DNA from: a virus
IMG/VR virus record: IMGVR_UViG_3300033156_000253
Span: 1 to 28,711 of that record
Length of the DNA: 28,711 bases
Reading direction: 5' to 3' (one strand)
The notes beneath the pieces were generated by a model, which had not been told where the DNA came from, searched no databases, and saw nothing but the letters and a program-made list of their open reading frames with translations. Shown here piece by piece: positions 3,627 through 26,746 of the stretch. Both the position numbers and the translations under genes were made by a program. Positions within the stretch are counted from its first letter, which is position 1, and every line of letters starts with the position of its first letter.

Positions 3627-4329
3627 AGGGATCGACGGTACACGGGACCCGCACGGTGATGCCAAGGATCGTGCGGAACGACGGCTATACAAATTACTGC
3701 GCACGCGGCTGGGCGAGCAACTGGACGAGGTGATGCGGCTGCTGGGCGACCCACCCGATCTGAGCAAACTCGACGTGGCGTTCTGGGCGAGCGCACAAGG
3801 GCGCATGATCGCCGACCTGCGACCACAAATCGAGCGCATGGCGCAAGAGGCAATTGCTACAACATCGGCGACGGTGCCGATCCTCTGGGATGAGGCCGTG
3901 ATTGCGGCAGAGGCTGTTGACTGGGCGCGAATTCACGCAGGTGAATTGATTGAGGACCTGACTCGCCATACTCGCGACCTGCTACAGCGCGTGATACCCG
4001 AATTCATTGAGACGCCTGGCATGACAGTAGGTGATCTGCGGCGCGAATTGGAGCCCGCGTTCGGCGAGGTTAGGGCAGAACGAATTGCGACGACAGAGGT
4101 GACACGCGCGTTTGCAGAAGGGACACAGATCATACAACAGCAATTAGCGACTGGCGGCGTACAGATGGAGCAGGTATGGCATACATCGATGGATGATAAG
4201 GTCTGTGATCTTTGCGGGCCATTAGATGGTCAGCCAGAGAGTCTATGGGCAGAGAAATCGCCTGGTACTGACGGGCCACCGCCACGTCACGTAAATTGCC
4301 GCTGCTGGACAACATTGAGGAACACATGA
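3610..4329 (+). CDS. MuF-like head morphogenesis protein
   Basis: This 239-residue protein belongs to the SPP1 gp7/Mu gpF head-morphogenesis group, minor capsid proteins associated with the portal. The diagnostic C-terminal part includes ERIATTEVTRAF, then WHTSMDDKVCDLC (Cys199, Cys202) and PPRHVNCRCW (His227, Cys230, Cys232), a likely metal-binding knot. The start is a TTG inside the end of the portal gene; the frame is closed by TGA at 3574-3576 and there is no other start before codon 42, so initiation is probably coupled to portal termination. No clear Shine-Dalgarno is seen. Its place right after the portal is standard. Confidence 0.88.
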   Translation: MRATREGIDGTRDPHGDAKDRAERRLYKLLRTRLGEQLDEVMRLLGDPPDLSKLDVAFWASAQGRMIADLRPQIERMAQEAIATTSATVPILWDEAVIAAEAVDWARIHAGELIEDLTRHTRDLLQRVIPEFIETPGMTVGDLRRELEPAFGEVRAERIATTEVTRAFAEGTQIIQQQLATGGVQMEQVWHTSMDDKVCDLCGPLDGQPESLWAEKSPGTDGPPPRHVNCRCWTTLRNT

Positions 4330-4781
4330 ACGCGACGATCGAGATTAAAGGGCTCGACAAACTACAGCGCAAATTGGGGCGTGGCGCGCGACCGGTTATT
4401 CGGACGATACTGCTCGGGGTAGCAGAGGAAATTAAGGGGCGCATCGCCGAATATCCGGGGCCAGTCGTCTACCCGATCCGGTGGGCGAGCGAGAGCCAGC
4501 GGCGCGCCTATTTCGCCAAACGAGGCGGCATGGGGCCGTACGTGCGGCAGACCGATTCATTCAGCGAGCGGTTGGGGCCCTCGTGGGCCACTCGACTGGA
4601 AGGCGATGATCGTGCTATAGTAGGGACGCGCGTGAGCTATGCGCCATGGGTGCAGAGTGCGGAGGCGCAGCAGCCGATGCACGCGGCTACGGGCTGGAAA
4701 ACGGACGAGGAGGCGATAGAGGAGGTGGAGCAGAGCGGAGCAGTGGAGCGCATATTCAGCAAGGCAATGAGCAAGTGGTAG
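4326..4781 (+). CDS. HK97 gp10-like neck / tail-completion protein
   Basis: A 151-residue protein starting at ATG 4326, which overlaps the previous stop as ATGA and has GAGG five bases upstream. A TTG at 4296 in the same frame is less likely. The sequence has the gp10-like pattern: an opening IEIKGLDKLQRKL, a helix, then YPIRWASESQRRAYF, PYVRQT and later YAPWVQS. Members of this group sit at the head-tail interface. It lies directly after the MuF-like gene rather than among the later connectors, a slightly unusual position. The family call rests on pattern similarity, and a generic minor capsid role is the main alternative. Confidence 0.65.
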   Translation: MNATIEIKGLDKLQRKLGRGARPVIRTILLGVAEEIKGRIAEYPGPVVYPIRWASESQRRAYFAKRGGMGPYVRQTDSFSERLGPSWATRLEGDDRAIVGTRVSYAPWVQSAEAQQPMHAATGWKTDEEAIEEVEQSGAVERIFSKAMSKW

Positions 4782-4793
4782 GAGGAGGAGAGC

Positions 4794-5936
4794 GTGCGCA
4801 TTTACATTGTCGCGGCGAGTGACGCAGAGCAGGACAAGGAACGGCGACTGCGCTGGGGTGACTATTGGTTCAAACAGTCGCTGGGGGCAGCGTTACAGAG
4901 CCTGGGCCACGAGATCGTCACAGACGTTATGCAGGCGCAGGCGGTTATCAACTGCCATGGCATGAGCATCGAACGGTTGCCCGAGTGGACCTACAATGTG
5001 CTGTGGATCATTGGCCATCCAGACGCGGTGACCGTGGATGAGTGCAATCAGTACGACGCGGTATTCAGCGAATCGCAGAAACTCGCGGCACACCTGCGAG
5101 AGCAGGGCGTCGACGCGCAGTGGCTGCCAGGCGCGACCGATTTCGTGCCGATGGACGTGCCGAAAACGCATAAGCGGGTGTTCGTGGGCAATGTGCGGGG
5201 CAAATCGCGTCCCTGCATTGATGCGCTAGACGGTAATTATGACGGTCTAGAGGTTTGGGGCGAGGGTTGGGATTGGCTGCCCGAAGGCGTGTGGCAAGGA
5301 CTGTATTACCCGCATGACAAACTGAACGAATTATACGCGGCTAGCGAGACGGTGCTCAATGACGTGCATGAGGACATGGCCCGTTGGGAGATGCATAATC
5401 CGCGCTACTACGACATCTTGGCCGTGGCGGGTAGACGAGTGCCGACGTTCCGCGATTGCGCCGAAAGGATTATGCGGGGTGCCTATGTCCTCAAGGGTCT
5501 CGACTTAGGTTGTGGCGCGCGCAAACGGCCCGGACTCACAGGCGTGGACCGTGTAGGCGGCGAGGACATCATCGCATGGGACCTAGAGGGCGGGCTGCCG
5601 GGCGAGATAGGGCCGCAGGACGTCATCATAGCAGACAACATCCTAGAGCACATTACCAACCTAATACTGCTCGTGAACGCCTGCCACGATGCGCTCATGC
5701 CTGATGGTCGGATGCACGTGCGCGTGCCCTCGGCCACGACATCGGCAGCATTCCAGGACCCGACACATGTGCGATATTTCGTACCTGAGACGTTTGATTA
5801 TTTCGATGTCAGTCACAATCGCTGGCAGGAGTATGGGCGGACCTATGGCATCAAACCCTGGCATATCGTGCGGCGGACAATGGACGGCGTGATGATCGAC
5901 GTGATGATGCGACCGGCGGAGGAGAAGAGGGAATGA
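4794..5936 (+). CDS. Fused CgeB-like glycosyltransferase and SAM methyltransferase
   Basis: A 380-residue two-domain enzyme with GTG start behind a strong AGGAGGAG. Residues 1-225 resemble the CgeB/GT-B glycosyltransferases: an N-terminal Rossmann strand (MRIYIVAAS), VFVGNVRGKSR at the start of the nucleotide-sugar half, WGEGWDWLP, and LYAASETVLND leading to PRYYDILAVAGRRVPTF. Residues about 233-375 are a class I methyltransferase: LDLGCGARKRPG (SAM-binding, from 236), an acid in GVDRV, and DNILEHI (about 281) with LMPDGRMHVRVP. One polypeptide could thus add a sugar and methylate a glycan. It opens a run of glycan genes and its stop overlaps the next start. Acceptor and donor are unknown. 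Confidence 0.82.
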   Translation: MRIYIVAASDAEQDKERRLRWGDYWFKQSLGAALQSLGHEIVTDVMQAQAVINCHGMSIERLPEWTYNVLWIIGHPDAVTVDECNQYDAVFSESQKLAAHLREQGVDAQWLPGATDFVPMDVPKTHKRVFVGNVRGKSRPCIDALDGNYDGLEVWGEGWDWLPEGVWQGLYYPHDKLNELYAASETVLNDVHEDMARWEMHNPRYYDILAVAGRRVPTFRDCAERIMRGAYVLKGLDLGCGARKRPGLTGVDRVGGEDIIAWDLEGGLPGEIGPQDVIIADNILEHITNLILLVNACHDALMPDGRMHVRVPSATTSAAFQDPTHVRYFVPETFDYFDVSHNRWQEYGRTYGIKPWHIVRRTMDGVMIDVMMRPAEEKRE

Positions 5937-6160
5937 ACGTCTATACTTGGCGGGTTCGGACAGGTGCTACGTGGGAGCAACCAGCACGAGAGGGCATATT
6001 GTCTGTTAAGGCAGAGGACAGACACGAAGCTCGCGATCTTGCTATAGAATTGATAGCACCAGTGATCGCACCAGAAACCAGACTCGCAGAGCAAATACGG
6101 GGTATTTATCCTAATATTGCGAATGAGCGAGCCACATTGAAATGGGATCCGATTTCATGA
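5933..6160 (+). CDS. Small hypothetical protein in the glycan cassette
   Basis: A 75-residue protein whose ATG overlaps the previous stop as ATGA; AGAAGAGGG just upstream can serve as Shine-Dalgarno. Its end overlaps the next glycosyltransferase start in the same way, so three genes are chained. The sequence opens MNVYTWRVRTG and has a helix-forming centre (VKAEDRHEARDLAIELI) suggesting a small alpha/beta fold. It carries no catalytic motif. I do not recognise the family; it resembles generic small phage proteins with a beta strand, helix and short beta tail. A partner role for the adjacent enzymes is only a guess from position. Confidence 0.6.
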   Translation: MNVYTWRVRTGATWEQPAREGILSVKAEDRHEARDLAIELIAPVIAPETRLAEQIRGIYPNIANERATLKWDPIS

Positions 6161-7053
6161 ACATCCTCATGGCATTTCTCTATAGCCCGCCGACGACAGC
6201 CTGTTATTACGCCAAAGCGTTCCGCGCGTTGGACCACGATGTGCGCACTTGGGGGCCGTCGCGGGATCTGTCGCGCCATCGTGAGGACCAACGATACCGA
6301 CTGACGGGGCCGCATATGACAGCGCCATTAGCAGATGGATGGCGACCGGATCTGTTTGTGTACATCGAGGCCGGGGCTGGATGGTTCCCGAATGATATGC
6401 CACAGCACACGATTCCGACAGTAGGCTATTTCATCGACTCACATTCACGGTTGCAGCAGCATCTAGAACGTGCGCCATATTTCGATCACGTATTCTACGC
6501 GCACAAACAATTCGCAGATGCGTTCGGGCCGGACGCGCATTGGCTACCGCTGGCCTGTGACCCAGACGTACACACGCCGACGCGCTGGCCCGATGAGCCT
6601 GAATACGACGTGGCATTTGTTGGCAACGCCTATCCCGACGTGGCGCTCTACGAGCCGCGGCGCAAAGCGCTGCGGATGCTGGCTGCGCGATATAATTGCC
6701 GATTCGTGAATGGCGTCTATTTTGGGGATATGGCGAACGTCTACGCCAACGCGCGCGTGGTGTTCAACCGCAGCGCACACGGCGATCTGAACATGCGGGT
6801 GTTCGAGGCTATATGCAGCGGGCGGCCATTGGTGACGGATTATACACACGAGAATGGTATACTGGACATGTTCGAGCCCTACGTCCATCTGATGTATTAC
6901 GAGGATCTAGACGATCTGAAGTTTACAGCAGCGGCGCTCATTAACGGTCCCCGCATGGCTCGAATGATCGGCGCAGCGGGTCGCGCAGCGGTATTGGCCG
7001 AGCATACCTACGTCCACCGCGCTCAGCAGATGCTAGCGGCGGTGGGGCTATGA
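6157..7053 (+). CDS. CgeB-like GT-B glycosyltransferase
   Basis: This 298-residue enzyme opens with MNILMAFLYSPP, a typical first strand of a GT-B fold, and has TVGYFIDSHSR with DHVFYAHKQF in the N-terminal half. The C-terminal half carries DVAFVGNAYPD (from about 151), then NRSAHGDLNMRVFEAICSGR, the region that binds the nucleotide-sugar in the Glyco_trans_1_2 (CgeB) family, and LAEHTYVHR near the end. ATG 6157 overlaps the previous stop as ATGA; ATG 6142 in frame would add five residues. It transfers a sugar from an activated donor to an unknown acceptor. It differs clearly from the other two GT-B enzymes here, so these are old paralogues rather than a recent duplication. Confidence 0.83.
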   Translation: MNILMAFLYSPPTTACYYAKAFRALDHDVRTWGPSRDLSRHREDQRYRLTGPHMTAPLADGWRPDLFVYIEAGAGWFPNDMPQHTIPTVGYFIDSHSRLQQHLERAPYFDHVFYAHKQFADAFGPDAHWLPLACDPDVHTPTRWPDEPEYDVAFVGNAYPDVALYEPRRKALRMLAARYNCRFVNGVYFGDMANVYANARVVFNRSAHGDLNMRVFEAICSGRPLVTDYTHENGILDMFEPYVHLMYYEDLDDLKFTAAALINGPRMARMIGAAGRAAVLAEHTYVHRAQQMLAAVGL

Positions 7054-7107
7054 GGCGCGCATCGAGTCTACCGGCTGGCGTTCGAAAGTGAGCCTAGAGG
7101 AGGACAC

Positions 7108-7410
7108 GTGACGTTTAAAGAGCTACTATGTGAGATATGGGCGTTGCTGCAAGAATGGTGGGGATGGAAAAGGAGCCAGCGCCGTCAGAGACACCAACAG
7201 CCGTGGGAATTGCCTCTGGAGCGACTGTCGAGGCGCATAGACGAACTAGAATCGTTGAGAACACAGGTCTCTCGCCTGGAGGGAGAGCAAGTATTCGTGC
7301 GCAAATTGGTCTCTGACAAAATGCTCACAGACCGAGAATGGCTAACCGATTTGAGCGAGGGGCAGACGCCAGAGCAAACGAGGAGGGGAGAATGCGCGAC
7401 ACAGCTCTGA
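7108..7410 (+). CDS. Small coiled-coil protein of unknown function
   Basis: A 100-residue protein with GTG start and GAGGAGG upstream (about 7097-7103). The N-terminus is Trp-rich and amphipathic (IWALLQEWWGWKR), followed by a strongly basic patch. Residues about 35-65 show leucine heptads (LERLSRRIDELESLRTQ) that predict a short coiled coil. No transmembrane segment is convincing. The 54 bases before it (7054-7107) hold nothing but the ribosome-binding site. It sits between two glycosyltransferase genes and overlaps the next small gene by 19 bases. A membrane-surface or scaffold role is conceivable, but no function can be assigned. Confidence 0.6.
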   Translation: MTFKELLCEIWALLQEWWGWKRSQRRQRHQQPWELPLERLSRRIDELESLRTQVSRLEGEQVFVRKLVSDKMLTDREWLTDLSEGQTPEQTRRGECATQL

Positions 7411-7655
7411 GCGAGCAGGGCTTGCGGGAGGAGGCCAAAATATCCCGCGCGACAATGAGAGAGGGACGGTTCCTCTTGAAAGTGCGGCGTCATCCAATCC
7501 TGGCAAAGAGCACCGAGCACAACATGTTGCTCAAAGGCGGGTTTGGAGCAATGGGTGTAGGCCGTATGTGGTGTCACGCAACCGAGCGGGAGACAGCCTC
7601 TCCCGAGTGGGGCGAACTGCCTGAGATGGAATGGGACGGGGAGATACTCGCATGA
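7392..7655 (+). CDS. Small hypothetical protein
   Basis: An 87-residue protein starting at ATG 7392 immediately after AGGAGGGGAG, the strongest ribosome-binding site in this part; upstream in-frame ATGs at 7338 and 7347 are possible but lack one. The sequence is basic in its first half (residues 10-45) and acidic at the end (EWGELPEMEWDGEI), with no known motif. Its stop overlaps the next glycosyltransferase start as ATGA. The good start signal and tight coupling argue that it is real, although composition alone would leave doubt. Confidence 0.55.
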   Translation: MRDTALSEQGLREEAKISRATMREGRFLLKVRRHPILAKSTEHNMLLKGGFGAMGVGRMWCHATERETASPEWGELPEMEWDGEILA

Positions 7656-8608
7656 GAATATTCGCCGCATTCCGACATTTCAACTGGGAGGAGCACAACC
7701 TGACACCCGCATTGCGAACATTCGGCGACGTGGTGCGCTACGACTGGCACCCGCCGTATGACCAATACGATGCTGGCTGGCACTATGGGCTAAAAGCAGC
7801 CATGAATCGCGAGATGTTGCAGCGTGTGGATGCGGCGCATAAGGAACAACCGCTAGACATATTCTACGGCTATCTATGCGGGCGGCTGGTGCATCGAGGC
7901 TATATCGAGGCACTGCGTCTCATGGGCATTCCGACGCTTAACATGACGTTGGACGACAAGACACACAGATACAGCGCGTTAGAGCCGAGTGGTTTCGCGG
8001 GTATGGTAGACATAGCGAGCGCGTTCGACCTGTGCTGGACGAGCGACCCGACGGCTGTGGAATGGTACGAGGAGCATGGCGCGAAGGCAATATACCTACC
8101 GCCGGGCGCGAACCCCGACGTGTTCAAGCCTATGGAATGCGAACGCGACATAGATGTGCTGTTCGTGGGCAAGAAATACGGGCGGCGCGAGAGCATCATC
8201 TGGCATCTGGAGCAGGCGGGGATCGATGTGCAGACTTACGGCCAGGGTTGGGAGCGCGGGCCGGTGAGCACTGAGAAAATGGTCGATCTAATGAACCGCG
8301 CGGTGATCACGCTCGGTATAGGCGAGGCGGCGGATGGCACAATATCGCTGAAAGGGCGCGATTTCGAGGCGCCGATGGCAGGCGCGTTCTACCTGGCGCA
8401 ATACAACGGTGAATTATTCGATCATTACCCTATCGACTCACTGGCAGCATGGAGAACATTGGACGATCTGATTGCGAATTGCCGATATTATCTAGCACAT
8501 CCGCATGAAGCCGAGACAATGCGCCACGCAGCAGCGAAGCACGCACGGGAACACCACACCTGGCGAGCGCGGTTCGAGACTGCATTCGAGGCGATGGGGC
8601 TGCTATGA
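7652..8608 (+). CDS. CgeB-like GT-B glycosyltransferase
   Basis: A 318-residue enzyme starting MRIFAAFRHFNWEEHNL at an ATG overlapping the previous stop. The N-terminal half has LDIFYGYLCGR and LNMTLDDKTHR. DLCWTSDPTAVEWYEEHG leads into YLPPGANPDVF, a motif typical of the CgeB/DUF3880 glycosyltransferases, and DVLFVGKKYG (about 167) begins the second Rossmann half. LKGRDFEAPMAGAFYLAQY matches the conserved donor-binding loop. It is the third GT-B gene of the cassette. Its end overlaps the methyltransferase gene as ATGA, suggesting the two are made together and may act on one glycan. Confidence 0.85.
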   Translation: MRIFAAFRHFNWEEHNLTPALRTFGDVVRYDWHPPYDQYDAGWHYGLKAAMNREMLQRVDAAHKEQPLDIFYGYLCGRLVHRGYIEALRLMGIPTLNMTLDDKTHRYSALEPSGFAGMVDIASAFDLCWTSDPTAVEWYEEHGAKAIYLPPGANPDVFKPMECERDIDVLFVGKKYGRRESIIWHLEQAGIDVQTYGQGWERGPVSTEKMVDLMNRAVITLGIGEAADGTISLKGRDFEAPMAGAFYLAQYNGELFDHYPIDSLAAWRTLDDLIANCRYYLAHPHEAETMRHAAAKHAREHHTWRARFETAFEAMGLL

Positions 8609-9267
8609 CAGATGCGCAATTGGCAGCGGGCAATCAGCGGGACGCTTGGTATTGGTCTGATTACCAGGAATACAGAGCCAGCGCTACAGAACCAGTAGTG
8701 CCAGTACGCATCCTAGACGAGCGCGCTGAGACGACGCCGGTGCATCCATTTTACTTCTACCAGGACGTATGGGCGGCGGAGCGGGTGCTGCGGGTGCGCC
8801 CCGAATGGCTGCTGGACGTAGGGGGCAGGCCGTTGCTGTTGGGAATGCTCTCGCTGTTTGTGCCAGTGACATCTGTGGAGACGCGCCCGCTGCCGGTGTC
8901 GTTGCCAAATTTGACCTGTCAGCGTGGCGACATAACCGCATTGCCATATGAGGACGATAGCGTGTCCATGGCGAGTTGTCTCAGCGTTATCGAGCATATC
9001 GGATTGGGGCGGTATGGCGACGCGATCGATCCGCATGGCAGTGAGCGGGCATGCCACGAATTGCAGCGGGTACTAGAGCCTGGCGGCCACCTGCTCCTCA
9101 GCACGCCCGTAGCTGACGAGCCGGTGACGCTGTTCAACGCGCACAGACTATTGAGCTGCGAGCAGGTGCGCAGTTGGCTCGATGAATGCGATTTGGTGGG
9201 CGGCATTGAGGTGAGAAACGACAATATGACCGTTTGGTGCGCGGAGTTCGTGAAGCATGACGGCTGA
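8605..9267 (+). CDS. DUF268-type SAM-dependent methyltransferase
   Basis: The 220-residue protein has a class I methyltransferase layout: LLDVGGR at the first strand, TSVETRPL with an acid at the second, GDITALPYEDDSV, and SCLSVIEHIGLGRYGD followed by RVLEPGGHLLLS. The EHIGLGRYGD block and the later NAHRLLS are signatures of the DUF268 family, whose members occur in polysaccharide loci. It probably methylates a sugar hydroxyl or a related glycan group. The start ATG overlaps the preceding glycosyltransferase stop. With the fused methyltransferase at 4794 there are two methyltransferase domains in this cassette. A role in DNA methylation is unlikely because no target-recognition domain or DPPY/PC motif is present. 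Confidence 0.82.
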   Translation: MTDAQLAAGNQRDAWYWSDYQEYRASATEPVVPVRILDERAETTPVHPFYFYQDVWAAERVLRVRPEWLLDVGGRPLLLGMLSLFVPVTSVETRPLPVSLPNLTCQRGDITALPYEDDSVSMASCLSVIEHIGLGRYGDAIDPHGSERACHELQRVLEPGGHLLLSTPVADEPVTLFNAHRLLSCEQVRSWLDECDLVGGIEVRNDNMTVWCAEFVKHDG

Positions 9268-9358
9268 GTCCCAAGAGATTCATGAGTTCATGATTCTATT
9301 ACGCAAAGCGCTCTTGATGATCGTGCGTTACATCGAGAAGAGGTATGGCGTGAAATAG
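9257..9358 (+). CDS. 33-residue small protein
   Basis: ATG 9257 lies inside the end of the methyltransferase gene and the frame runs to TAG at 9356-9358. The product is helical and amphipathic, with MILLRKALLMIVRYIEKRYG as its core. Similar very short proteins with an LRKAL..IV.YIEKRYG pattern are a recurrent sight in phage head modules, which raises confidence a little. No clear Shine-Dalgarno is seen, so coupling to the upstream gene would be needed. Function unknown. Confidence 0.45.
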   Translation: MTAESQEIHEFMILLRKALLMIVRYIEKRYGVK

Positions 9359-9400
9359 GTATATCGAAAATGATATAGGCCGTGCGGCCATAGAGCCGCC

Positions 9401-9454
9401 CAGCCCCGACCGATTGGCAGTACACAGGTCCTGCTGATTGAGCGGGGCTGTTTT
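9401..9454 (+). terminator. Long-loop hairpin with T-tract before the capsid gene
   Basis: CAGCCCCG (9401-9408) pairs perfectly with CGGGGCTG (9443-9450) and is followed at once by TTTT. The 34-base loop contains a further four-base pairing (GCAG 9417-9420 with CTGC 9431-9434). Just upstream GCGGC (9384-9388) and GCCGC (9395-9399) form another small hairpin. It may be a leaky terminator after the glycan cassette or a processing/stability element at the 5' end of the capsid message. The loop is long for a classical terminator. Confidence 0.45.
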
Positions 9455-9479
9455 AGTTGAAGAGCTAGGAGCGATAGCA

Positions 9480-11666
9480 ATGCCTTGGAAGGTGTTCGAG
9501 AGAGATGATGAATGGTGCGTGTACAGGATTGATGAGGATGGCGATGCCGTTGGCGAGACATTGGGCTGCCACGATAGCAAGGAGAAGGCGCAGCGACAGG
9601 TAGCAGCGCTCTACGCCAGCGAGCCGGAGGCGCAGAGCAAGGCCATTACGAAACGCGAGTCGGATGGAGAGCATCCGGCCTCGCATTATCTGGTCGTGGA
9701 GGACCCAAAGTCGCCCAGCACCTGGCATCTGCGCGTGCGCGACGCGAGTGGCAAACTCGATCACCGCCTGATGGGTGCGGCATGGGCCGCGCTGCATGGC
9801 GGTTACAGGGGCAATCGTTACGAGGGCCCGAACAAACGGGAGGCTATATCGAAATTGCGTGCTCTGTACGAGCGAGAAGATATGCCAATACCTGGCGGCA
9901 AGGCGCTGATGGTCAAAGCCACAGACAATGGCTATACGCTCGGCGGTTGGGGCGTTGTCTACGGGAGCATAGACCTAGAGGGCGAGCGATTCGTACCGGA
10001 GACCGATTTCTGGTTCGATAAATTGACGCGAACGCCGCCGGTACTGTACCAACATGGTATGGACGCGAAAGCCGCGCGGCAGGTGCTGGGCAAGGCAATG
10101 GTCGATGAGCGCGATATCGGAGTTTGGGTAGAGACACAAATTGCGCTGTCTAATGAATACGCAGAGGCCATACGCCAATTGGCTGAGGAGGGGCGGCTCG
10201 GCTGGTCCTCTGGTGCGGTTGGACATCTCGTAGAACGAGATGGGGCGACGATCACATCGTGGCCTATCGCTGAATTCAGCCTTACGCCGACACCGGCGGA
10301 ACCGCGCACGCTGGGCGTGAGTGAATTGCGGGTACTGGCTGCCACTGAGCCTGCGGTCAAGGCGTTACTGCCAGAGGATGGCGGGGAGCCATCGGCAGAC
10401 GCGACTACGGCGAAACAGGCGGCCCAAACGATAAGCGTAACAGATAGGACACAGGAGATAGAGATGGTTGACAAGGAAAATAATTCTACGGAGGCCCAGG
10501 AACAAAAAACCCTGGACCCTGCCGTCTTCGCTGAGGCGGCAATGAACAAGTTTAGGGCATTGCTCGAAAATGAGCCAGCCCTCAGGAGGGCGTTTTACGA
10601 TACCCCCACAGACAAAGATCACCCCGAGGTGAAATCGTTCGGGAACTGGCTCCTCGCGGTTCAGAACGGCGACGAAAAACGACTGAAATCGGTTTACGAC
10701 TCGCGGAAGGATCTGGCGGAGGGCGTCGGCAGTAGCGGCGGATATCTGGTACCGCCCGAATACTCGCAGGACATTCTGCGGCTGGCAGTCGAGATGTCTG
10801 TCGTTCGTCCGCGTGCCAGGGTTATCCCGATGCGGGGGCGCGAATGGAACGTGCCGTCGCTGGACTATACCGGCAGTACGGCAGGCAAACCGCCACAACT
10901 CGCTGGTGTCGTAGCAACCTGGACAGAAGAGGGCAGCGAGAAAACGGAGACGGAACCCACGTTTCGCACGATCAAGCTGATGTACCACGAATTGTCGGGG
11001 TACACACAGGCCACAAATATGCTGAGGCAGGATGCAGGCCCGACGCTAGAGGCCACACTGCGGCAGCTATTCGCAGAGGCAGTCAGCTGGTACGAGGATT
11101 GGGCGTTTCTGCGTGGCGACGGTGCGGGTAAACCGCTCGGCGTGTTCAACGCGAACTGTCTGTTGACAGAGGCTGCTGGCGCGAGCACATGTGTGCTGAG
11201 CGATCTCGCCAACATGATGACGAAGTTTTTGAATAGGCCGAACGATGTTGGCCCATATGGTGGCGCGGTCTGGGTGATGCATCCTGAGATGCTGCCGTAT
11301 CTGATTGCGCTGGCTGATGGCGCGGCCAATACGAACAACATCATCTGGATCCAGGGCGCGAGCCAGAAACAACCGGCCACCCTGTTCGGCATCCCGATCG
11401 TCTGGACAGAAAAAATGCCGAGAATTCCGCAGGCGGCCGCGGCTGCGAACAAGGGCGGGATTCTGCTTGCTGATTTCAGCTACTACCTGATTGGCACGCG
11501 CAATCAGCTGGCGATCGATTTCAGCGAACATTATGCGTTCACCGAGAACAAAGGCACTTGGAGATTTTGCGACTATGTGGATGGCCAGCCCTGGTTGACG
11601 CAGGCGGTATATCGTGCGGACGGTAGCAATACCTGCTCGCCGTTCGTAACGCTGAGCGGCGCATAG
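9480..11666 (+). CDS. Prohead protease - major capsid protein fusion
   Basis: One 728-residue frame holds four parts. Residues 1-48 form a small domain (PWKVFERDDEWCVY... CHDSKEKA) and 65-135 a WHLRV...DHRLMGAAWAALH domain, both often found ahead of phage proteases. Residues about 140-285 are an HK97-type prohead protease with His192 (LYQHGMD), Ser243/244 (LGWSSGAVGH) and IAEFSLTPTPAEP (Glu265), matching the His-Ser-Glu set. From Met329 follows a charged delta-like segment (about 85 residues) and an HK97-fold capsid protein starting near SGGYLVPPEYS. The start ATG has AGGAG eight bases upstream. Usually protease and capsid are separate genes; here no stop lies between them, but a strong internal start exists at 10464. 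Confidence 0.9.
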   Translation: MPWKVFERDDEWCVYRIDEDGDAVGETLGCHDSKEKAQRQVAALYASEPEAQSKAITKRESDGEHPASHYLVVEDPKSPSTWHLRVRDASGKLDHRLMGAAWAALHGGYRGNRYEGPNKREAISKLRALYEREDMPIPGGKALMVKATDNGYTLGGWGVVYGSIDLEGERFVPETDFWFDKLTRTPPVLYQHGMDAKAARQVLGKAMVDERDIGVWVETQIALSNEYAEAIRQLAEEGRLGWSSGAVGHLVERDGATITSWPIAEFSLTPTPAEPRTLGVSELRVLAATEPAVKALLPEDGGEPSADATTAKQAAQTISVTDRTQEIEMVDKENNSTEAQEQKTLDPAVFAEAAMNKFRALLENEPALRRAFYDTPTDKDHPEVKSFGNWLLAVQNGDEKRLKSVYDSRKDLAEGVGSSGGYLVPPEYSQDILRLAVEMSVVRPRARVIPMRGREWNVPSLDYTGSTAGKPPQLAGVVATWTEEGSEKTETEPTFRTIKLMYHELSGYTQATNMLRQDAGPTLEATLRQLFAEAVSWYEDWAFLRGDGAGKPLGVFNANCLLTEAAGASTCVLSDLANMMTKFLNRPNDVGPYGGAVWVMHPEMLPYLIALADGAANTNNIIWIQGASQKQPATLFGIPIVWTEKMPRIPQAAAAANKGGILLADFSYYLIGTRNQLAIDFSEHYAFTENKGTWRFCDYVDGQPWLTQAVYRADGSNTCSPFVTLSGA
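10464..11666 (+). CDS. Major capsid protein from an internal in-frame start
   Basis: ATG 10464 is in frame with the larger fusion and is preceded by AGGAG (10453-10457) with six bases of spacing. Initiation here gives a 400-residue HK97-type capsid protein: a highly charged N-terminal segment (residues 1-85, delta domain equivalent), then SGGYLVPPEY, a region with HELSGYTQATNML, WAFLRGDGAGKPLGV and a C-terminal half with IVWTEKMP and GTWRFCDYVDGQP. A capsid needs hundreds of shell subunits but few proteases, so this start would supply most of the coat protein. It is inferred from sequence, not shown to be used. Confidence 0.72.
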   Translation: MVDKENNSTEAQEQKTLDPAVFAEAAMNKFRALLENEPALRRAFYDTPTDKDHPEVKSFGNWLLAVQNGDEKRLKSVYDSRKDLAEGVGSSGGYLVPPEYSQDILRLAVEMSVVRPRARVIPMRGREWNVPSLDYTGSTAGKPPQLAGVVATWTEEGSEKTETEPTFRTIKLMYHELSGYTQATNMLRQDAGPTLEATLRQLFAEAVSWYEDWAFLRGDGAGKPLGVFNANCLLTEAAGASTCVLSDLANMMTKFLNRPNDVGPYGGAVWVMHPEMLPYLIALADGAANTNNIIWIQGASQKQPATLFGIPIVWTEKMPRIPQAAAAANKGGILLADFSYYLIGTRNQLAIDFSEHYAFTENKGTWRFCDYVDGQPWLTQAVYRADGSNTCSPFVTLSGA

Positions 11667-11683
11667 GCAGGAGGTAAATAACC

Positions 11684-12142
11684 ATGGAACGACTGACAGA
11701 ACGAATCAAAATCGTTGATACCGTTACCACGAGCAAGTGTTTGCAGAGCGGCTCAGCGATGACGTGCACGATCGACATGGCGCTGTTCAGGCGCATGATG
11801 GTGATCGCGCAGGCGCTAAGCACGAAAGAGACCACAACTGTGCCACACGCCACCATCAAAATCCTCGATAGCACGGCGAAGGGCACGGCCACGGGTACAG
11901 CGATCGTGACCAATACGATCATGTGCCAGACGGCGGGATTCGCACGGACCAAGATTTTCGAGGTAACAAGCGACCAGTTGGGCAAAAATGTCAGTAGCGG
12001 CGAGCTGACCACACGAGGGCGCTATGCGCGCGTGCGGGCCGTATATGGTACACGCGCTACGCAGGTATCTCTCGTGCTGATCGGGGCGGACCCGCGGTTT
12101 GGGCCACAGTCCAATACCGTGACCACCACGGCGGCGAGTTGA
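11684..12142 (+). CDS. Putative virion protein after the capsid gene
   Basis: A 152-residue protein with a good start signal (AGGAGGT before ATG 11684). It is rich in Thr, Ala and Val, beta-forming, with two Cys in the first 30 residues and a third near residue 80. Phage genes at this place usually encode head decoration or stabilising proteins, and the composition fits such a soluble beta-rich protein, but I recognise no family. It lies 17 bases after the capsid stop and is followed by a 61-base gap with a perfect hairpin. A role as decoration protein is inference from position only. Confidence 0.7.
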   Translation: MERLTERIKIVDTVTTSKCLQSGSAMTCTIDMALFRRMMVIAQALSTKETTTVPHATIKILDSTAKGTATGTAIVTNTIMCQTAGFARTKIFEVTSDQLGKNVSSGELTTRGRYARVRAVYGTRATQVSLVLIGADPRFGPQSNTVTTTAAS

Positions 12143-12160
12143 TAGTCGATAGTGGGGACA

Positions 12161-12183
12161 GGGCGGGTGCTCGTGACCCGCCC
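12161..12183 (+). other. Intercistronic RNA hairpin
   Basis: GGGCGGGT (12161-12168) and ACCCGCCC (12176-12183) form a perfect 8-bp, very GC-rich stem with a seven-base loop. GGGG at 12154-12157 and CCCC at 12188-12191 could extend it. No T-run follows, so it is more likely an mRNA-stability or processing element in the capsid transcript than a classical terminator. The next ribosome-binding site (AGGAGA, about 12192) lies just beyond it and could be partly masked. Confidence 0.5.
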
Positions 12184-12203
12184 ATAGCCCCAGGAGAGAT
12201 GTT

Positions 12204-12590
12204 ATGACACTAGATTTCAAAACACAACACGAGGCGGCGGACGATCAATATGCGACTGTGAAAATAGTCAACATCATTGCCACCGGCACACAGAGCACGG
12301 TTGCGTATCTCGACGGTAAGAGCCCGATACGGCTGCTCATGCCTGCTGGCTGGTCGAGTACTGCCGTAATCGTGCACGTCGATGTGTCAGAGGACGGCAC
12401 GAATTTTTTGCCCCTCTGGGATGGCGGCACAGCATATACCGTCGCAGTGGAGGCGAGCCAGGCCGTCGCCGTTGATCCGACTAAGTTCTGGGGCACGGGG
12501 TATGTCCGGCTTCTCGGGACGACGGCGAAAGGGACGGCGGTTGCGCAGACCACGGCGTGCAGCGTGAGCGTTGTGACCAGATTGATCTAG
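12204..12590 (+). CDS. Putative virion protein, beta-sandwich type
   Basis: A 128-residue protein with ATG 12204 after AGGAGA. The middle pattern, LLMPAGWSSTAVIVHVDVSEDGTNFLPLWD followed in the chain by a Val/Ala strand and AVDPTKFWGTGYVRLL, is a familiar one in small phage proteins encoded near capsid genes (a hydrophobic P-x-W strand, SxDGxxF, then AVDPxxF). The fold is probably an all-beta sandwich. These proteins are unnamed and probably structural; their location on the particle is not established. No signal peptide or membrane segment is present. Confidence 0.68.
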   Translation: MTLDFKTQHEAADDQYATVKIVNIIATGTQSTVAYLDGKSPIRLLMPAGWSSTAVIVHVDVSEDGTNFLPLWDGGTAYTVAVEASQAVAVDPTKFWGTGYVRLLGTTAKGTAVAQTTACSVSVVTRLI

Positions 12591-12600
12591 GAGAGTACAG

Positions 12601-13011
12601 ATGGCACTGAATCCGAAAATATCGTATGTAGCCGCTAATCTCGCAGTGGACGCGGTGGTAGATACGCTCGACAATGGCCTATTGCGCATCTACGACGGCA
12701 CGCAGCCGAACAGTTGCAATAGCGCCGTAACGACGCAAGTTAAGCTCGCCGGGCTTACATTCGGCTCGCCCGCGTTCGGTGATAGCACCGCTGGCGTCGC
12801 CACAGCGAATGCAATCACAAAGGACGACGCCGCCGACGCGAAAGGAACGGCGTCCTGGTTCCGCGCACTTCAGCCTGCGGGCAATACCGCCATGTTCGAC
12901 GGCAGCGTGGGCACGGCGGACGCGAATATCGTGCTCAACAGCGTGAGCATTCAGACGGGCGCCGAGGTGAGCGTAACGGCATTGACTTACACGCAGCCAA
13001 CGACCGCATAG
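12601..13011 (+). CDS. Putative virion protein of a widespread phage family
   Basis: A 136-residue protein with ATG 12601 following AGGAGAGTACAG. The sequence LDNGLLRIYDGTQPNS, then ATANAITKDDAADAKGTASWFRAL and FDGSVGTADANIVLNS, matches a pattern I recognise from many uncharacterised phage head-region proteins. It is Ala/Thr-rich, predicted beta, with no enzymatic motif. Together with its neighbours at 11684, 12204 and 13024 it forms a block of small proteins between capsid and connectors; a virion role is likely but its exact place is unknown. Confidence 0.7.
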   Translation: MALNPKISYVAANLAVDAVVDTLDNGLLRIYDGTQPNSCNSAVTTQVKLAGLTFGSPAFGDSTAGVATANAITKDDAADAKGTASWFRALQPAGNTAMFDGSVGTADANIVLNSVSIQTGAEVSVTALTYTQPTTA

Positions 13012-13023
13012 CGAGGAGGCCCT

Positions 13024-13536
13024 GTGAAAGTAGTCAAAGTCAAAGTACGCAGGGGCGGGCCTGGCGAAGATATGATGGTCTACCCCGACGCAGCACATGG
13101 TGGACCGTATGATTCAAACGAGGTTGACCGTGTGGGTATCGGCCCGCGCATGAGTGGCGGCATGTGCGCTTACTCTGGTGACATCGGCAAAGGCGGTGAC
13201 TACGAGTATTGCCTCATCGTTCTACCCGACGAACTGGCTGAAACCTATGCCGAACATCCCGATATGGAGATCATCACGGAGAGCGAGGCTGACGCGTTAC
13301 AGGCCGACTGGCGTGTAACGCAGGGTATGCCGGAGGAACGGCTCGACGAGACAGCGAAAGCCAAGGCCGATTTGTACGAGGCCAAAGTGAATGCGGGACT
13401 GAGCCTGTCACAAGAAGAGGCTGACGATCTCGCTGCGCTCAAGGTGACCAAACCGACGTTAGAGGCCATGGCGGATATCATTGCTAAGCGCGAGGCCAAG
13501 TCCGCCGCGTTCGACGAGGGGAAGATCAAACCGTGA
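13024..13536 (+). CDS. Hypothetical protein with charged helical C-terminus
   Basis: A 170-residue protein with GTG start after GAGGAGG. The first 80 residues are mixed and begin MKVVKVKVRRGG; the last 80 are acidic and helix-forming (ETAKAKADLYEAKVNAG, then SQEEADDLAALK). Such a tail suits a protein that binds other virion parts or acts as a scaffold. I do not recognise the family. Its stop overlaps the start of the GT-A glycosyltransferase gene by four bases (GTGA), tying it to that enzyme in translation. Confidence 0.62.
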   Translation: MKVVKVKVRRGGPGEDMMVYPDAAHGGPYDSNEVDRVGIGPRMSGGMCAYSGDIGKGGDYEYCLIVLPDELAETYAEHPDMEIITESEADALQADWRVTQGMPEERLDETAKAKADLYEAKVNAGLSLSQEEADDLAALKVTKPTLEAMADIIAKREAKSAAFDEGKIKP

Positions 13537-14129
13537 GCGAGTCGCATGTGCTGATTTCGGGCACTTGCGTTCACACCACTATGCCAGAGCCGCTGATGTG
13601 GGCGCATCGGCAGGTCTTGCGGGGAAAACCGCGTTGCGTGCTCGATTTCTTCCGTGAGAAGAAGACGCTCGTACACGCACGTAATATGCAGGTGTGGCGC
13701 TTTCTGGAGACACCGTGTACGCATCTGTTCATCCTAGATAGCGATGCGGTGCCTCCCGAAGGCTGCTTGCTGCGGATGACGGCAATGGACGTGCCCCTCG
13801 TGGCCGCGCCGCACATGACGCAGATAGGCGACGAAACTGGGCCGATGGTGCTGGACGCGACTGAGAATCAGTTTGAATACGTGCAGCATAGGCCGTGGAC
13901 CGGTATGCAGCCATGCCAGGCTGTCGGTTGTGCTGGAATGCTCATACGACGCGATGTGCTAGAGGCTATCGAGCCTCCCTGGTTCATGACTGAATATGAC
14001 GAAAGGGGACTGCTAAAGAGTAGCGAGGATTTCTACTTCTGCCGCAAGTTCCTAGATGCGGGGTACGAGGTGGTGTGGGCAGACTTCGACTCGTTACAGC
14101 GCCACTGGATGGGGCGGTGGGTGACGTAG
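13533..14129 (+). CDS. GT-A (GT2-like) glycosyltransferase
   Basis: A compact 198-residue enzyme. Residues 63-75 read THLFILDSDAVPP, with the metal-binding DxD (Asp69-Ser70-Asp71) of GT-A glycosyltransferases. VGCAGMLIRRDVLEAI and PPWFMTEYDE with a following SSEDFYFCRK contain the acidic residues expected near the acceptor and catalytic base. It lacks the usual N-terminal VTIPVYN strand and is short, so it may be a minimal version. It is a paralogue of the enzyme at 15962. GTG 13533 overlaps the previous stop. It ends one base before the repeat-protein gene, which makes that protein an attractive acceptor candidate. Confidence 0.78.
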   Translation: MSESHVLISGTCVHTTMPEPLMWAHRQVLRGKPRCVLDFFREKKTLVHARNMQVWRFLETPCTHLFILDSDAVPPEGCLLRMTAMDVPLVAAPHMTQIGDETGPMVLDATENQFEYVQHRPWTGMQPCQAVGCAGMLIRRDVLEAIEPPWFMTEYDERGLLKSSEDFYFCRKFLDAGYEVVWADFDSLQRHWMGRWVT

Positions 14130-14130
14130 T

Positions 14131-15075
14131 ATGGCTGGGAATGTAATCAGTGCTGACGACTTGGCAGACAGGCTCTACAAACATAGTGGTTTCTCATCGA
14201 CCATAACGAGTAGTTATGACACCCCAGGCGCTAGTTGTCAGGGCATTACTTGGGATGGGACAAATGTACTTAGTGCTGACGACGGCCTACATAAACACTA
14301 CAAGCACGAAGGTTTCTCGTCAACTATTACGAGTAGTTATGCTAGTCCGAGTAGCGCCCCCACTGGCATCACCTGGGACGGGACAAATGTACTTAGTGCT
14401 GACTCTACCGCCGGCAGGCACTACAAACACTCTGGCTTCTCATCGACCATAACAGATAGTTATGATAGCCCAGGTAATCGCCCAGAGGGCATCACCTGGG
14501 ATGCGAGGTATGCGGGTGCGCCCGCCATCACAGGCACTGGCACATTCGCCACACAGCCAATCACGATTGCTGGCACCGGCACATATACCCCACTAGCGAT
14601 CACCGGTACGGCCACAATTGCCGCGCAGCCTGCCGCAATCGCAGGTACAGGTACCTACACACCGCTCGCGATAACTGGGACGGGTAGCGTCACAACACAG
14701 GCGGTCACGATAGCAGGGACTGGCACCTATACACCGTTGGCAGTTACGGGAACGGGTGCAGTCGCAGTGCAGCCAGCGGCCATTGCGGGTACGGGCACGG
14801 TAGGCACAACGGCAATCACTGGCACTGGCGCAGTAGTAGTGCAGCCCGTCACGATAGCAGGCACAGGGACCTATACGCCACTAGCGATCACGGGCACGGG
14901 CGGCGTCATTGCCCAACCGATGCAGATTGCCGGCGTGGGCATGACGACAGGTGTCCTCGCGCGGCTGGCGATTACGATTGCCGCGCGCTATATGGCGGGG
15001 ATAGAGGATGCGCCACGGTATAACGTCGGGATTGCGGACGCGGCGCGATATAACGTGTCGATAGAGGACGAGTAA
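14131..15075 (+). CDS. Triple-repeat virion protein (propeller-like and Thr/Gly repeats)
   Basis: The 314-residue protein is almost entirely repeats. Residues 4-126 are three 41-residue units with the core YKHSGFSSTIT, SY..P, GITWDGTNVLSAD, a pattern known from phage fibre-like and beta-propeller-like proteins. Residues 133-276 are six exact-period 24-residue units (ITGTG....QP..IAGTGTYTPLA). Residues 285-314 are three 10-residue ARYNVGIEDA units. There is no signal peptide and only two Cys-poor regions. A surface fibre or spacer role fits. The many Thr and Ser could be glycosylation targets of the adjacent enzymes, but this is inference. The next gene's ATG follows the stop directly. Confidence 0.82.
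   Translation: MAGNVISADDLADRLYKHSGFSSTITSSYDTPGASCQGITWDGTNVLSADDGLHKHYKHEGFSSTITSSYASPSSAPTGITWDGTNVLSADSTAGRHYKHSGFSSTITDSYDSPGNRPEGITWDARYAGAPAITGTGTFATQPITIAGTGTYTPLAITGTATIAAQPAAIAGTGTYTPLAITGTGSVTTQAVTIAGTGTYTPLAVTGTGAVAVQPAAIAGTGTVGTTAITGTGAVVVQPVTIAGTGTYTPLAITGTGGVIAQPMQIAGVGMTTGVLARLAITIAARYMAGIEDAPRYNVGIADAARYNVSIEDE
14140..14508 (+). repeat. Three 123-bp coding repeats (41 residues each)
   Basis: Units at 14140-14262, 14263-14385 and 14386-14508 show the same spacing of YKH (residues 16, 57, 98) and SAD (about 7, 48, 89). The nucleotide copies are related but diverged, mainly at third positions, so the protein repeat appears to be under selection. Confidence 0.85.
14527..14958 (+). 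repeat. Six 72-bp coding repeats (24 residues each)
   Basis: ITGTG or VTGTG starts recur at residues 133, 157, 181, 205, 229 and 253, an exact 24-residue period. Each unit has a QP in the middle and IAGTG after it. The fifth and sixth units vary most. The nucleotide copies use different synonymous codons, which argues against very recent expansion. Confidence 0.9.
14983..15072 (+). repeat. Three 30-bp coding repeats (10 residues each)
   Basis: ARYMAGIEDA, PRYNVGIADA and ARYNVSIEDE form the last 30 residues of the repeat protein, each encoded by about 30 bp. A weaker copy (ARLAITIA) precedes them. Confidence 0.8.
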
Positions 15076-15366
15076 ATGGCAAACACCTACGACTCTGGCG
15101 ATCAGATACGGATTACGGCAACATTCACCAATAGTACCAGTACGACGGTAGACCCGACTGTTATCACCTGCAAACACAAAAATCCTAGCGGGACTATGAC
15201 CACACTCGTATATGGCGAGGACGCCATCACGCGCAGCACGCGAGGGACGTATTACACCGATGTGACGCTGGACGAGACGGGTACTTGGTATGTGCGTTGG
15301 GAAGGGACGGGCGCGGCGGTAGCGGCAGCTGAGTCCTATTGGGTCGTGCGGGAGAGTGAGTTCTGA
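15076..15366 (+). CDS. Small Ig-like phage protein
   Basis: A 96-residue protein whose ATG follows the preceding TAA without a gap. The pattern YDSGDQIRITATFTN, then DPTVITCKHKNPSG and a final TWYVRWEGTGA...SYWVVRESEF matches a family of about 100-residue Ig-like proteins common near phage head-tail connectors or tail fibres. It is all-beta with a single Cys. It could be a small decoration or adaptor protein; no function has been established for the family to my knowledge. Confidence 0.7.
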   Translation: MANTYDSGDQIRITATFTNSTSTTVDPTVITCKHKNPSGTMTTLVYGEDAITRSTRGTYYTDVTLDETGTWYVRWEGTGAAVAAAESYWVVRESEF

Positions 15367-15367
15367 C

Positions 15368-15949
15368 ATGGGATATGTGACAGTAGCGCAGTTCAAACAG
15401 TATCGAAAAATCACATCCTCGGCAGACGACGTGCTCATCGGCGACATCATCGACCGTGCTACGGCGCAGATCGAGACATACTGCGACCGCATATTCGTGG
15501 CACCCACCACGGCAGCAACGCGGTATTTCGATGCTGTGCGGGACACGTCCGATGACCGCAAGATACTCTACCTGGATGACGATCTAGCCACTATCGTCAC
15601 GATCGTCAACGGCGACGACGAGACGATAGCCTCGACGCACTATGTGCCCGTGCCGCGACATGAGACGCCGTACTGGGCTATTCGGCTCACGGGGCTCGCA
15701 GACACACTCTGGACATATGAGGACGCCCCAGAGGATGCCATCGAGGTGAACGGACGGTGGGGATACGCCACGAGCGCACCAGCCGATATCCAACACGCGA
15801 CGATACGGCTGGCGGCGTATCTGTATGCACAGAAAGACGCATCGGTGTTCGACGTCACGATGATGCCGGGCCAGGGCGTGATGACCGTACCACAGGGATT
15901 CCCGCGCGATGTGCGCGAGATATTGGAGCCATATAAGAAGCTACGTTAG
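15368..15949 (+). CDS. Head-tail connector protein, gp6-like
   Basis: A 193-residue protein (ATG 15368, two bases after the previous stop; GTG 15356 would add four residues). The opening VTVAQFKQYRKI with an SADDVLIGDIIDRATAQIE helix, a YCDRIF motif, then a beta region, RWGYATSAPADIQHAT and a final helix with VREILEPYKKLR fit the gp6-like connector family. These proteins form a ring beneath the portal and join the head to the tail. The position before the tail-completion and tail-tube genes agrees. Confidence 0.82.
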   Translation: MGYVTVAQFKQYRKITSSADDVLIGDIIDRATAQIETYCDRIFVAPTTAATRYFDAVRDTSDDRKILYLDDDLATIVTIVNGDDETIASTHYVPVPRHETPYWAIRLTGLADTLWTYEDAPEDAIEVNGRWGYATSAPADIQHATIRLAAYLYAQKDASVFDVTMMPGQGVMTVPQGFPRDVREILEPYKKLR

Positions 15950-15961
15950 GAGGAGGAGAGA

Positions 15962-16759
15962 GTGGGGGAGGAGAGACGAGAAGACGGTTACATACGGGAG
16001 GATTGGGCGCACGGTTCCGTAGAGCGGCGTCTGCTACCAGAGCCGCGCGGTGTCCCGCTTCTCACGCCAACCGACAAGAATATACGCGTCCTCTGGGGTA
16101 TTCCCATGGAACGCACACTGAATCAATATGCGTTTTTCGGGTTCGCCAAAATCCTAACTCAGGGCTGGACGCTCGCAGAATTGCAATATACCAGAAACGA
16201 CATAGCGCGATGCAAATTTACGGATTATCTGCTCAAAGATGATAGATATACGCACCTAATCATGCTCGACAGCGATCACGTGCACCCGCCGACGATAATC
16301 CAACGACTCGCGCGCTGGTTTCAGGCATATCCGAAACAGGTACAGGTAGTGGGCGGGCTCAATTTTCGGCGTGGGGAGCCGTACGATCCATGCGCGTTTA
16401 TAGACCCTGGTGACGGCCATTTCCGCCGTATAGCAGAATGGCCACGCGGAGCGATGGAGGTCGAAGCGCTCGGCACAGGCAGCATTATGATCGCACGCGA
16501 AGTGTTTGACACGATGAGCCCGCCCTGGTTCGGCTACGACTACGACAACAACTATGGCGATTGGCCGGGCACGGATATGTGGTTCAGCGCGGAATGCCGC
16601 AAACGAGGCATCACACTCTGGTGCGATACCACGACGACGAGTCCGCATATCGGGCACAAATTGATCGACGGCACTGATTATGCACAGTGGACAGAGGAGA
16701 ATGTGAAAGATGCGAGTGGCGCTGATCCGGCCGGCCAGTCCATTTCTCTCGGTATCTGA
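15962..16759 (+). CDS. GT-A (GT2-like) glycosyltransferase, second copy
   Basis: A 265-residue enzyme with GTG start and AGGAGGAGAGA immediately before it. Residues 97-110 read THLIMLDSDHVHPP with the DxD metal site (Asp103-Ser-Asp105). GTGSIMIAREVFD and PPWFGYDYD, then TDMWFSAECRKRG, correspond in order to the same blocks in the enzyme at 13533, so the two are paralogues; this one has a longer N-terminus. It interrupts the connector-tail-completion series, which suggests insertion of a glycosylation gene into a standard virion module. Donor and acceptor are unknown. Confidence 0.82.
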   Translation: MGEERREDGYIREDWAHGSVERRLLPEPRGVPLLTPTDKNIRVLWGIPMERTLNQYAFFGFAKILTQGWTLAELQYTRNDIARCKFTDYLLKDDRYTHLIMLDSDHVHPPTIIQRLARWFQAYPKQVQVVGGLNFRRGEPYDPCAFIDPGDGHFRRIAEWPRGAMEVEALGTGSIMIAREVFDTMSPPWFGYDYDNNYGDWPGTDMWFSAECRKRGITLWCDTTTTSPHIGHKLIDGTDYAQWTEENVKDASGADPAGQSISLGI

Positions 16760-16786
16760 GGCGCGATACAAAATGAGGATAGCAGC

Positions 16787-17230
16787 ATGAGCACGATTGC
16801 AGAGATAGCGGCGGCACTGCAAACGCTCCACGCTGGCATTAGCGGCGTCGGTTCGGCACCTACGGCAATGCCGAGCAATCTGGACCAGACGACGTTGCCA
16901 GTAGCATTGGTGTGGCCGGGCGAGGCGACCTGGACTCTGCACGCCATAGGGCTCCATCGTCAGGATCGCACCTACATCGTGCGCGTGTTCGTGGCCCCGG
17001 TCGCGCAGGGGATCGCGGGGCCGGACGAGGGCTATCAGGAGTGCATGACACTGATGGAGGCGTTTGGGCAGGCGTACATCGACGATCCGACGCTGGGCGA
17101 CGTTGTGGATCATATCACGGACATTGCCGATAGCGGCGTCTCGGGTGGCGGCATGGAGTTGGGCTGGGGCAACACAGCATATTGGGGTTTCGTGTTTCGC
17201 ATACGGATAGCCGAGAAAACAGCGGCATAG
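16787..17230 (+). CDS. Putative tail-completion / tail-terminator protein
   Basis: A 147-residue protein with ATG 16787 after GAGGATAG. It begins with a helix (IAEIAAALQTLHAGI), then LPVALVWPGEATWTL, DRTYIVRVFVAPVAQG, a middle helix (YQECMTLMEAFGQAYI) and a final beta strand (YWGFVFRIRIAEK). This alpha-beta-alpha-beta order is that of small tail-terminator proteins that cap the tail tube, and the position directly before the tail-tube gene supports it. The family resemblance is structural in style rather than a clear sequence match. Confidence 0.6.
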   Translation: MSTIAEIAAALQTLHAGISGVGSAPTAMPSNLDQTTLPVALVWPGEATWTLHAIGLHRQDRTYIVRVFVAPVAQGIAGPDEGYQECMTLMEAFGQAYIDDPTLGDVVDHITDIADSGVSGGGMELGWGNTAYWGFVFRIRIAEKTAA

Positions 17231-26704: not shown

Positions 26705-26746
26705 ATGACGCCACACGGCACACCTGACTGGGACTTGAAAACGTGA
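26705..26746 (+). CDS. Thirteen-residue leader reading frame or gene remnant
   Basis: ATG 26705 starts MTPHGTPDWDLKT, ending at TGA 26744-26746, which overlaps the lysin start GTG 26743 as GTGA. AGGCGAG just upstream may act as a weak ribosome-binding site. The HGTPDW string resembles the first residues of a family of phage virion proteins, so it may be a truncated relic. Equally it may be a short leader that couples translation to the lysin gene, whose own Shine-Dalgarno is weak. Confidence 0.35.
   Translation: MTPHGTPDWDLKT

Follow-up and report, generated by a model that had tools for sequence, protein, structure and literature searches.

A late operon split at two places

The window analysed here is the whole 28.7 kb of the linear IMG/VR virus record IMGVR_UViG_3300033156_000253, a metagenomic siphovirus fragment. 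Its genes, named below by their first nucleotide, run from the small and large terminase through portal, a Mu F-like head protein, a neck protein and a protease–capsid fusion, and continue downstream of the capsid with small head proteins, connector, tail tube, tape measure, Dit, tail tip and an M23 lysin, some of these roles being assigned from position only. Modification genes, on the plus strand like the structural genes that border them, split this late operon at two places: site A (4794–9267), between the neck and protease/capsid genes, and site B (13533–16759), in the region of the connector and tail tube. Site A is bordered upstream by a neck/tail-completion-like protein (4296–4781; phrog_5, E = 0.003) and downstream by a prohead protease–major capsid protein fusion (9438–11666; Phage_capsid 6e-48, phrog_10 2e-48, phrog_80 protease 1e-6), a candidate acceptor in which a single 742-aa frame joins the two proteins. 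The borders of site B are the head–tail connector (15356–15949; phrog_442 4e-22) and, downstream, a putative tail-tube protein (17241–18242), also a candidate acceptor. The latter is assigned by its place between the connector and the tape measure; a Pfam and PHROG search with it gave no match, and its counterpart in relative L004 is 99.7% identical.

The genes, coordinates and overlaps described in an earlier sequence-only reading of this DNA were reproduced throughout, with ATGA overlaps at 5933–5936 and 8605–8608 and a GTGA overlap at 13533–13536 (genes 13024/13533). AGGAGGAGGAGAG ribosome sites precede the GTG starts of 4794 and 15962, and the starts of 6157 and 7652 agree with those in relatives. 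Farther downstream, the lysin-like protein (26743–28254) combines an N-terminal M23 peptidase with a C-terminal half that by eye resembles a TIM-barrel glycoside hydrolase. As the window is a fragment, the early region was judged from the close relative G006 (L043), in which the genes recognised include those for RecT, a beta clamp, SLT, HTH, a metallophosphatase and a PAPS-reductase; the clamp gene (12601–13716) encodes a complete beta clamp of DNA polymerase III, and the PAPS-reductase-like protein lies at 16165–16998. Terminase relatives of the window come mostly from Chloroflexota and other MAGs, which gives only a hint of the host. A recent foreign origin of the modification genes was considered and is unsupported, the GC content being uniform.

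Site A enzymes and a deleted epimerase gene

Five glycosyltransferase (GT) domains had been read from the sequence, three of them GT-B and two GT-A, together with two methyltransferase domains. Two of the GT-B enzymes are clear: 6157 (6157–7053) and 7652 (7652–8608) match PF13524 (Glyco_trans_1_2) with E values of 1e-25 and 3e-19, and their scores of 90.7 and 69.9 bits both pass the curated cut-off of 25. Their catalytic motifs are kept in relatives, where 6157 has homologues at the equivalent place in L003, L005, L008, L014 and L134, and 7652 has a 65% identical homologue in L134. The third, 4794 (4794–5936), is a fusion of a partial, GT-B-like N-terminal half with a class I SAM methyltransferase. 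Family-wide, PF13524 is matched by six of seven members and Methyltransf_23 by five of seven; in 4794 itself both halves fall under the Pfam cut-off. Its Glyco_trans_1_2 match (17.1 bits, profile positions 6–74 of 144) stays short of the whole-domain cut-off, and because roughly half of the GT-B C-terminal (donor) domain lies outside it, GT activity of this protein is uncertain.

Both methyltransferase domains were borne out. The class I SAM-dependent methyltransferase 8605 (8605–9267; DUF268 1e-10, Methyltransf_11 1e-6) passes the Pfam cut-off, carries the glycine-rich motif and has a 55% identical homologue in L134. The C-terminal half of 4794 scores below its profile cut-off and is recognised by the family-wide match and by LDLGCG, a glycine-rich SAM motif kept across the family; its homologues in L014 and L134 are 55–56% identical. 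Structure prediction, proposed earlier as a check on the transferases, produced a GT-A-like model for 15962 (below) and a poor AF2 model for 4794 (pLDDT 44). Searches of the PDB returned weak GT-B matches for 6157 and no GT among the matches for 4794 and 7652. Among GenBank phages, a search found nothing for 6157, 8605 and 15962, and weak matches only for 4794, 7652 and 13533.

It had also been noted that sugar-nucleotide synthesis genes are absent. This is true of the window today and nonetheless misleading, since the short interval 7050–7103 appears to be the scar left when most of a GDP-mannose 3,5-epimerase gene was deleted. Here a start codon, kept at 7050 and overlapping the stop of the preceding GT gene, is followed by ~47 nts (7057–7103) that match the 3′ portion of the epimerase gene in L005, the middle being missing. 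The intact gene lies between the 6157 and 7108 counterparts in L003 and L005. The L003 protein, which was tested directly, matches the plant GDP-mannose 3,5-epimerase (PDB 2c59) over nearly its full length with E = 3e-80 and keeps the active-site motifs SS..C, YG.EK and GREKAPAA; those of L005 and L134 are identified by homology to it. In L008 the gene is frameshifted, and in L134 a UDP-Glc/GDP-Man-type dehydrogenase (PF00984, 7e-13) lies between the epimerase and the 7652 homologue. A misassembly at 7050–7103 is possible; the remnant bears substitutions of its own, which speaks against it. Given the scar and the full gene in L003 and L005, the absence of a sugar-nucleotide gene from the window looks like a loss rather than the ancestral state. 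The further suggestion that the donor would come from the host needs amending: it need not be an unmodified host donor, the epimerase being part of the cassette in relatives.

The GT-A pair and a mobile repeat-protein unit at site B

Site B holds two GT-A enzymes, 13533 (13533–14129), with LDSD and SED motifs, and 15962 (15962–16759), which sits directly after the connector gene. Both fall under the Pfam cut-off and match phrog_1574 (1e-6 and 2e-9, respectively). They are homologous to each other (28.7% identity, E = 1e-9), and nine homologues all keep the DxD and a catalytic-type Asp. The best Foldseek PDB matches of the predicted 15962 model (pLDDT 61) are GT-A enzymes, so that a GT-A fold is well indicated for the model of 15962; for 13533 the fold is assigned by homology only. 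A profile of the family retrieves, as its only PDB match at E < 0.001, A197 of the archaeal virus STIV (PDB 2c0n; 8e-5), with the LDxD and GED motifs aligned.

In BFVD, one structural neighbour of 15962 carries the annotation TAGT, and glycosylation of bases is the job of many phage GTs (PMC12619734). The enzymes might accordingly be imagined to glycosylate modified bases of the phage's own DNA, in the manner of T4-like or TET/TAGT phages. However, the GT genes lie in the virion operon and not in a replication module, and the early-region genes recognised in G006 comprise no base-modifying partner. Thymidylate synthase/hydroxymethylase, Tet/JBP and TAGT had no match in the window or in the relatives searched, whose records are fragments. 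With such partner enzymes missing from these fragment records, DNA modification is disfavoured and appears highly improbable.

The 13533 gene belongs to a 2.8 kb accessory block (12590–15367; genes 12601, 13024, 13533, 14131 and 15076). By blastn, exactly this interval is cleanly missing from L004, where 13533 and 14131 are gone together. The 14131 product (14131–15075) is a KHYKHSGF-repeat protein, a candidate acceptor or fibre, with 24.5% Ser/Thr and three repeats in the window; it evolves fast (dN/dS 0.33). Upstream of the GT, 13024 (13024–13536) encodes an accompanying protein of unknown function. The same trio occurs in L053, an unrelated phage contig with an unrelated terminase and, by eye, a podovirus-like portal. 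There, homologues of 13024 and 13533 (89–91%; 89% for 13024) are followed by a KHYKHSGF-repeat protein with more repeats than in the window, and a diverged second set is also present, its 13024 copy at 47% again adjoining a GT copy. The two sets, each with a repeat protein, a 13024-like protein and a GT, stand in tandem at L053:7228–12704. Judged from these sequences, the 13024–13533–14131 unit moves as a cassette common to the window and L053. All four copies of GT 13533 seen (the window, two in L053 and L007) sit in a unit with such a repeat protein, and on this ground we infer that 13533 is the enzyme and 14131 its probable acceptor.

Conservation of the cassettes and probable virion glycosylation

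The search for the same gene set in related phages, suggested by the sequence-only reading, found the enzymes in order in relatives from ~97% down to ~50% identity. Fragments roughly 70–97% identical share the enzyme order of the window. At ~56% identity, L134 still keeps 4794, 6157, epimerase, 7652 and 8605; the GT order is kept together with the epimerase in L003 and L005 as well, and L014 retains 4794, 6157 and 15962. Two neighbouring genes in these relatives may be mentioned in passing: a radical SAM gene (L014:12697–13773; PF04055, 7e-17) directly ahead of the GT/methyltransferase fusion, and a Mu F-like head protein (L134:6974–8101) whose C-terminal extension bears a THNHPNG motif that by eye resembles a JAB-type metalloprotease. 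Site A is an insertion site, because the neck-to-capsid gap spans 4.3–5.8 kb with the cassette and no more than ~0.5 kb in some twelve more distant, cassette-free relatives (counted in a few of them from the Mu F-like gene). In most of L139–L153, members of the 15962 family have capsid or tail-tube genes nearby, and in L145 an MptE/CST-I-like protein, a methyltransferase and a GT2 immediately precede the tail tube. In G018 a GT-A is found upstream of the terminase, and the position of the family is therefore not absolute.

The dN/dS values of the six enzymes (0.05–0.21) resemble those of the structural genes other than 14131 (0.01–0.17); the enzymes are intact and, as with the structural genes, purifying selection acts on them, which rules out chance. 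Such constraint, the order conserved to ~50% identity and the retained catalytic motifs all weigh against regarding these as accessory genes without a virion role, whether for general sugar metabolism or as selfish cargo, that gather at permissive sites. Content does vary among relatives as that proposal would have it (the window has lost the epimerase and L008 has it frameshifted, while L014 has the radical SAM gene and L134 the dehydrogenase), and we consider it very unlikely.

Gene clusters for surface polysaccharides typically encode PF13524 and MptE/CST-I-like enzymes, and both occur here, the former among the cassette GTs and the latter in L145. Phage GTs can, moreover, change the host serotype (PMC10955285). 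It is therefore worth asking whether the enzymes modify a receptor polysaccharide, S-layer or wall polymer of the host, blocking superinfection or aiding progeny release, their late-operon position being incidental. Against this proposal, the enzymes adjoin capsid and tail genes in many relatives, 13533 is co-mobile with a repeat-protein gene, and membrane anchors are lacking. Nor does the set look like Gtr-type serotype conversion, in which a temperate phage supplies membrane GtrA/GtrB: no membrane-like segment was found in any of the enzymes, and no tyrosine integrase was matched in the relatives, leaving no sign of lysogenic conversion. Modification of the host surface thus seems unlikely.

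The best reading, partly supported by the comparative sequence evidence, is a dedicated glycosylation and methylation system linked to the virion, as had been proposed. With a probability of roughly 0.7, the two late-operon cassettes act in the host cytoplasm to decorate structural proteins of the phage itself with sugars, probably O-methylated ones. Operon position by itself proves no substrate; what points to the virion is the match to the cluster O layout described below, the conserved insertion site, the likeness of the GT-A enzymes to a capsid-linked viral GT, and the fact that neither DNA-hypermodification nor lysogeny genes were found in relatives. Counting against it, the GTs are non-homologous to mycobacteriophage GTs, 4794 has a partial donor domain and a poor model, and the window is a fragment. 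Acceptor, donor and methylation are put forward here in conditional form. At site A, 4794, 6157, 7652 and 8605 would together assemble a short glycan carried by the capsid or by head proteins close to it; the GTs would attach its sugars and the methyltransferases would cap them. At site B the targets would be tail or fibre-like proteins, most likely 14131 for 13533 and the tail tube or connector for 15962. Since none has a membrane-like segment, the enzymes should act in the cytoplasm. The donors would be GDP- or UDP-sugars, tailored in relatives by the cassette-borne GDP-mannose 3,5-epimerase, in one of them also with the UDP-Glc/GDP-Man-type dehydrogenase; the window lineage, its epimerase lost, would draw on host donors or produce a simpler glycan.

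To our knowledge, few phages, most of them mycobacteriophages, have been shown to glycosylate their virions. For those of cluster O, a 2015 paper proposed capsid modification (PMC4351075), and later papers (PMC11600133, PMC12363180, citing Freeman et al. 2023) report that capsid and tail tube are glycosylated and name GTs that are essential for this. FoulBall, the cluster O representative compared with the window, has the order portal, O-methyltransferase, GT, GT, GT, protease, capsid; site A of the window likewise places GT and methyltransferase genes between portal and protease/capsid. Cluster O (Corndog-type) phages and the window's relatives further share a siphovirus late operon and, in the records searched, the lack of an integrase. 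Unlike cluster O, however, the window has GT-B enzymes, a GT/methyltransferase fusion and, beyond the capsid gene, a second site, its relatives carry sugar-nucleotide genes, its host is uncultured, and its GTs are non-homologous (best blastp E = 0.009 over 46 aa, unconvincing). Because the slot is the same and the enzymes are non-homologous, this looks like a parallel system that evolved in the cluster O slot and not a member of cluster O by descent.

Two other viruses offer more distant parallels. STIV A197, a GT essential to its virus and proposed to act on the capsid (PMC10551542), is likewise a small GT-A with LDxD and GED motifs, although its virus is archaeal with another capsid fold and the similarity is remote. 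In chlorovirus PBCV-1, the GT–GT–methyltransferase A064R and virus-coded GDP-sugar enzymes act in capsid glycosylation (PMC7019647), recalling the 4794 fusion and the GDP-mannose-derived sugar synthesis of the window's relatives; PBCV-1 is a eukaryotic giant virus, and the likeness is by description, with no homology claimed.

The arrangement is thus of a known kind rather than newly discovered, and its component enzymes are new. Conceivably, if tentatively, the parts amount to a mobile, self-contained virion-glycan pathway with donor tailoring, several GTs, methyl capping and plug-in GT–acceptor units (13024–13533–14131), diversified by gain and loss of parts. Non-homologous enzymes in the same virion-operon slot of unrelated uncultured phages suggest that the strategy arose more than once and may be recognisable by position, and the cassette-borne donor-sugar genes, together with a GT that moves with its candidate acceptor, lead to testable predictions on both the sugar and the protein.
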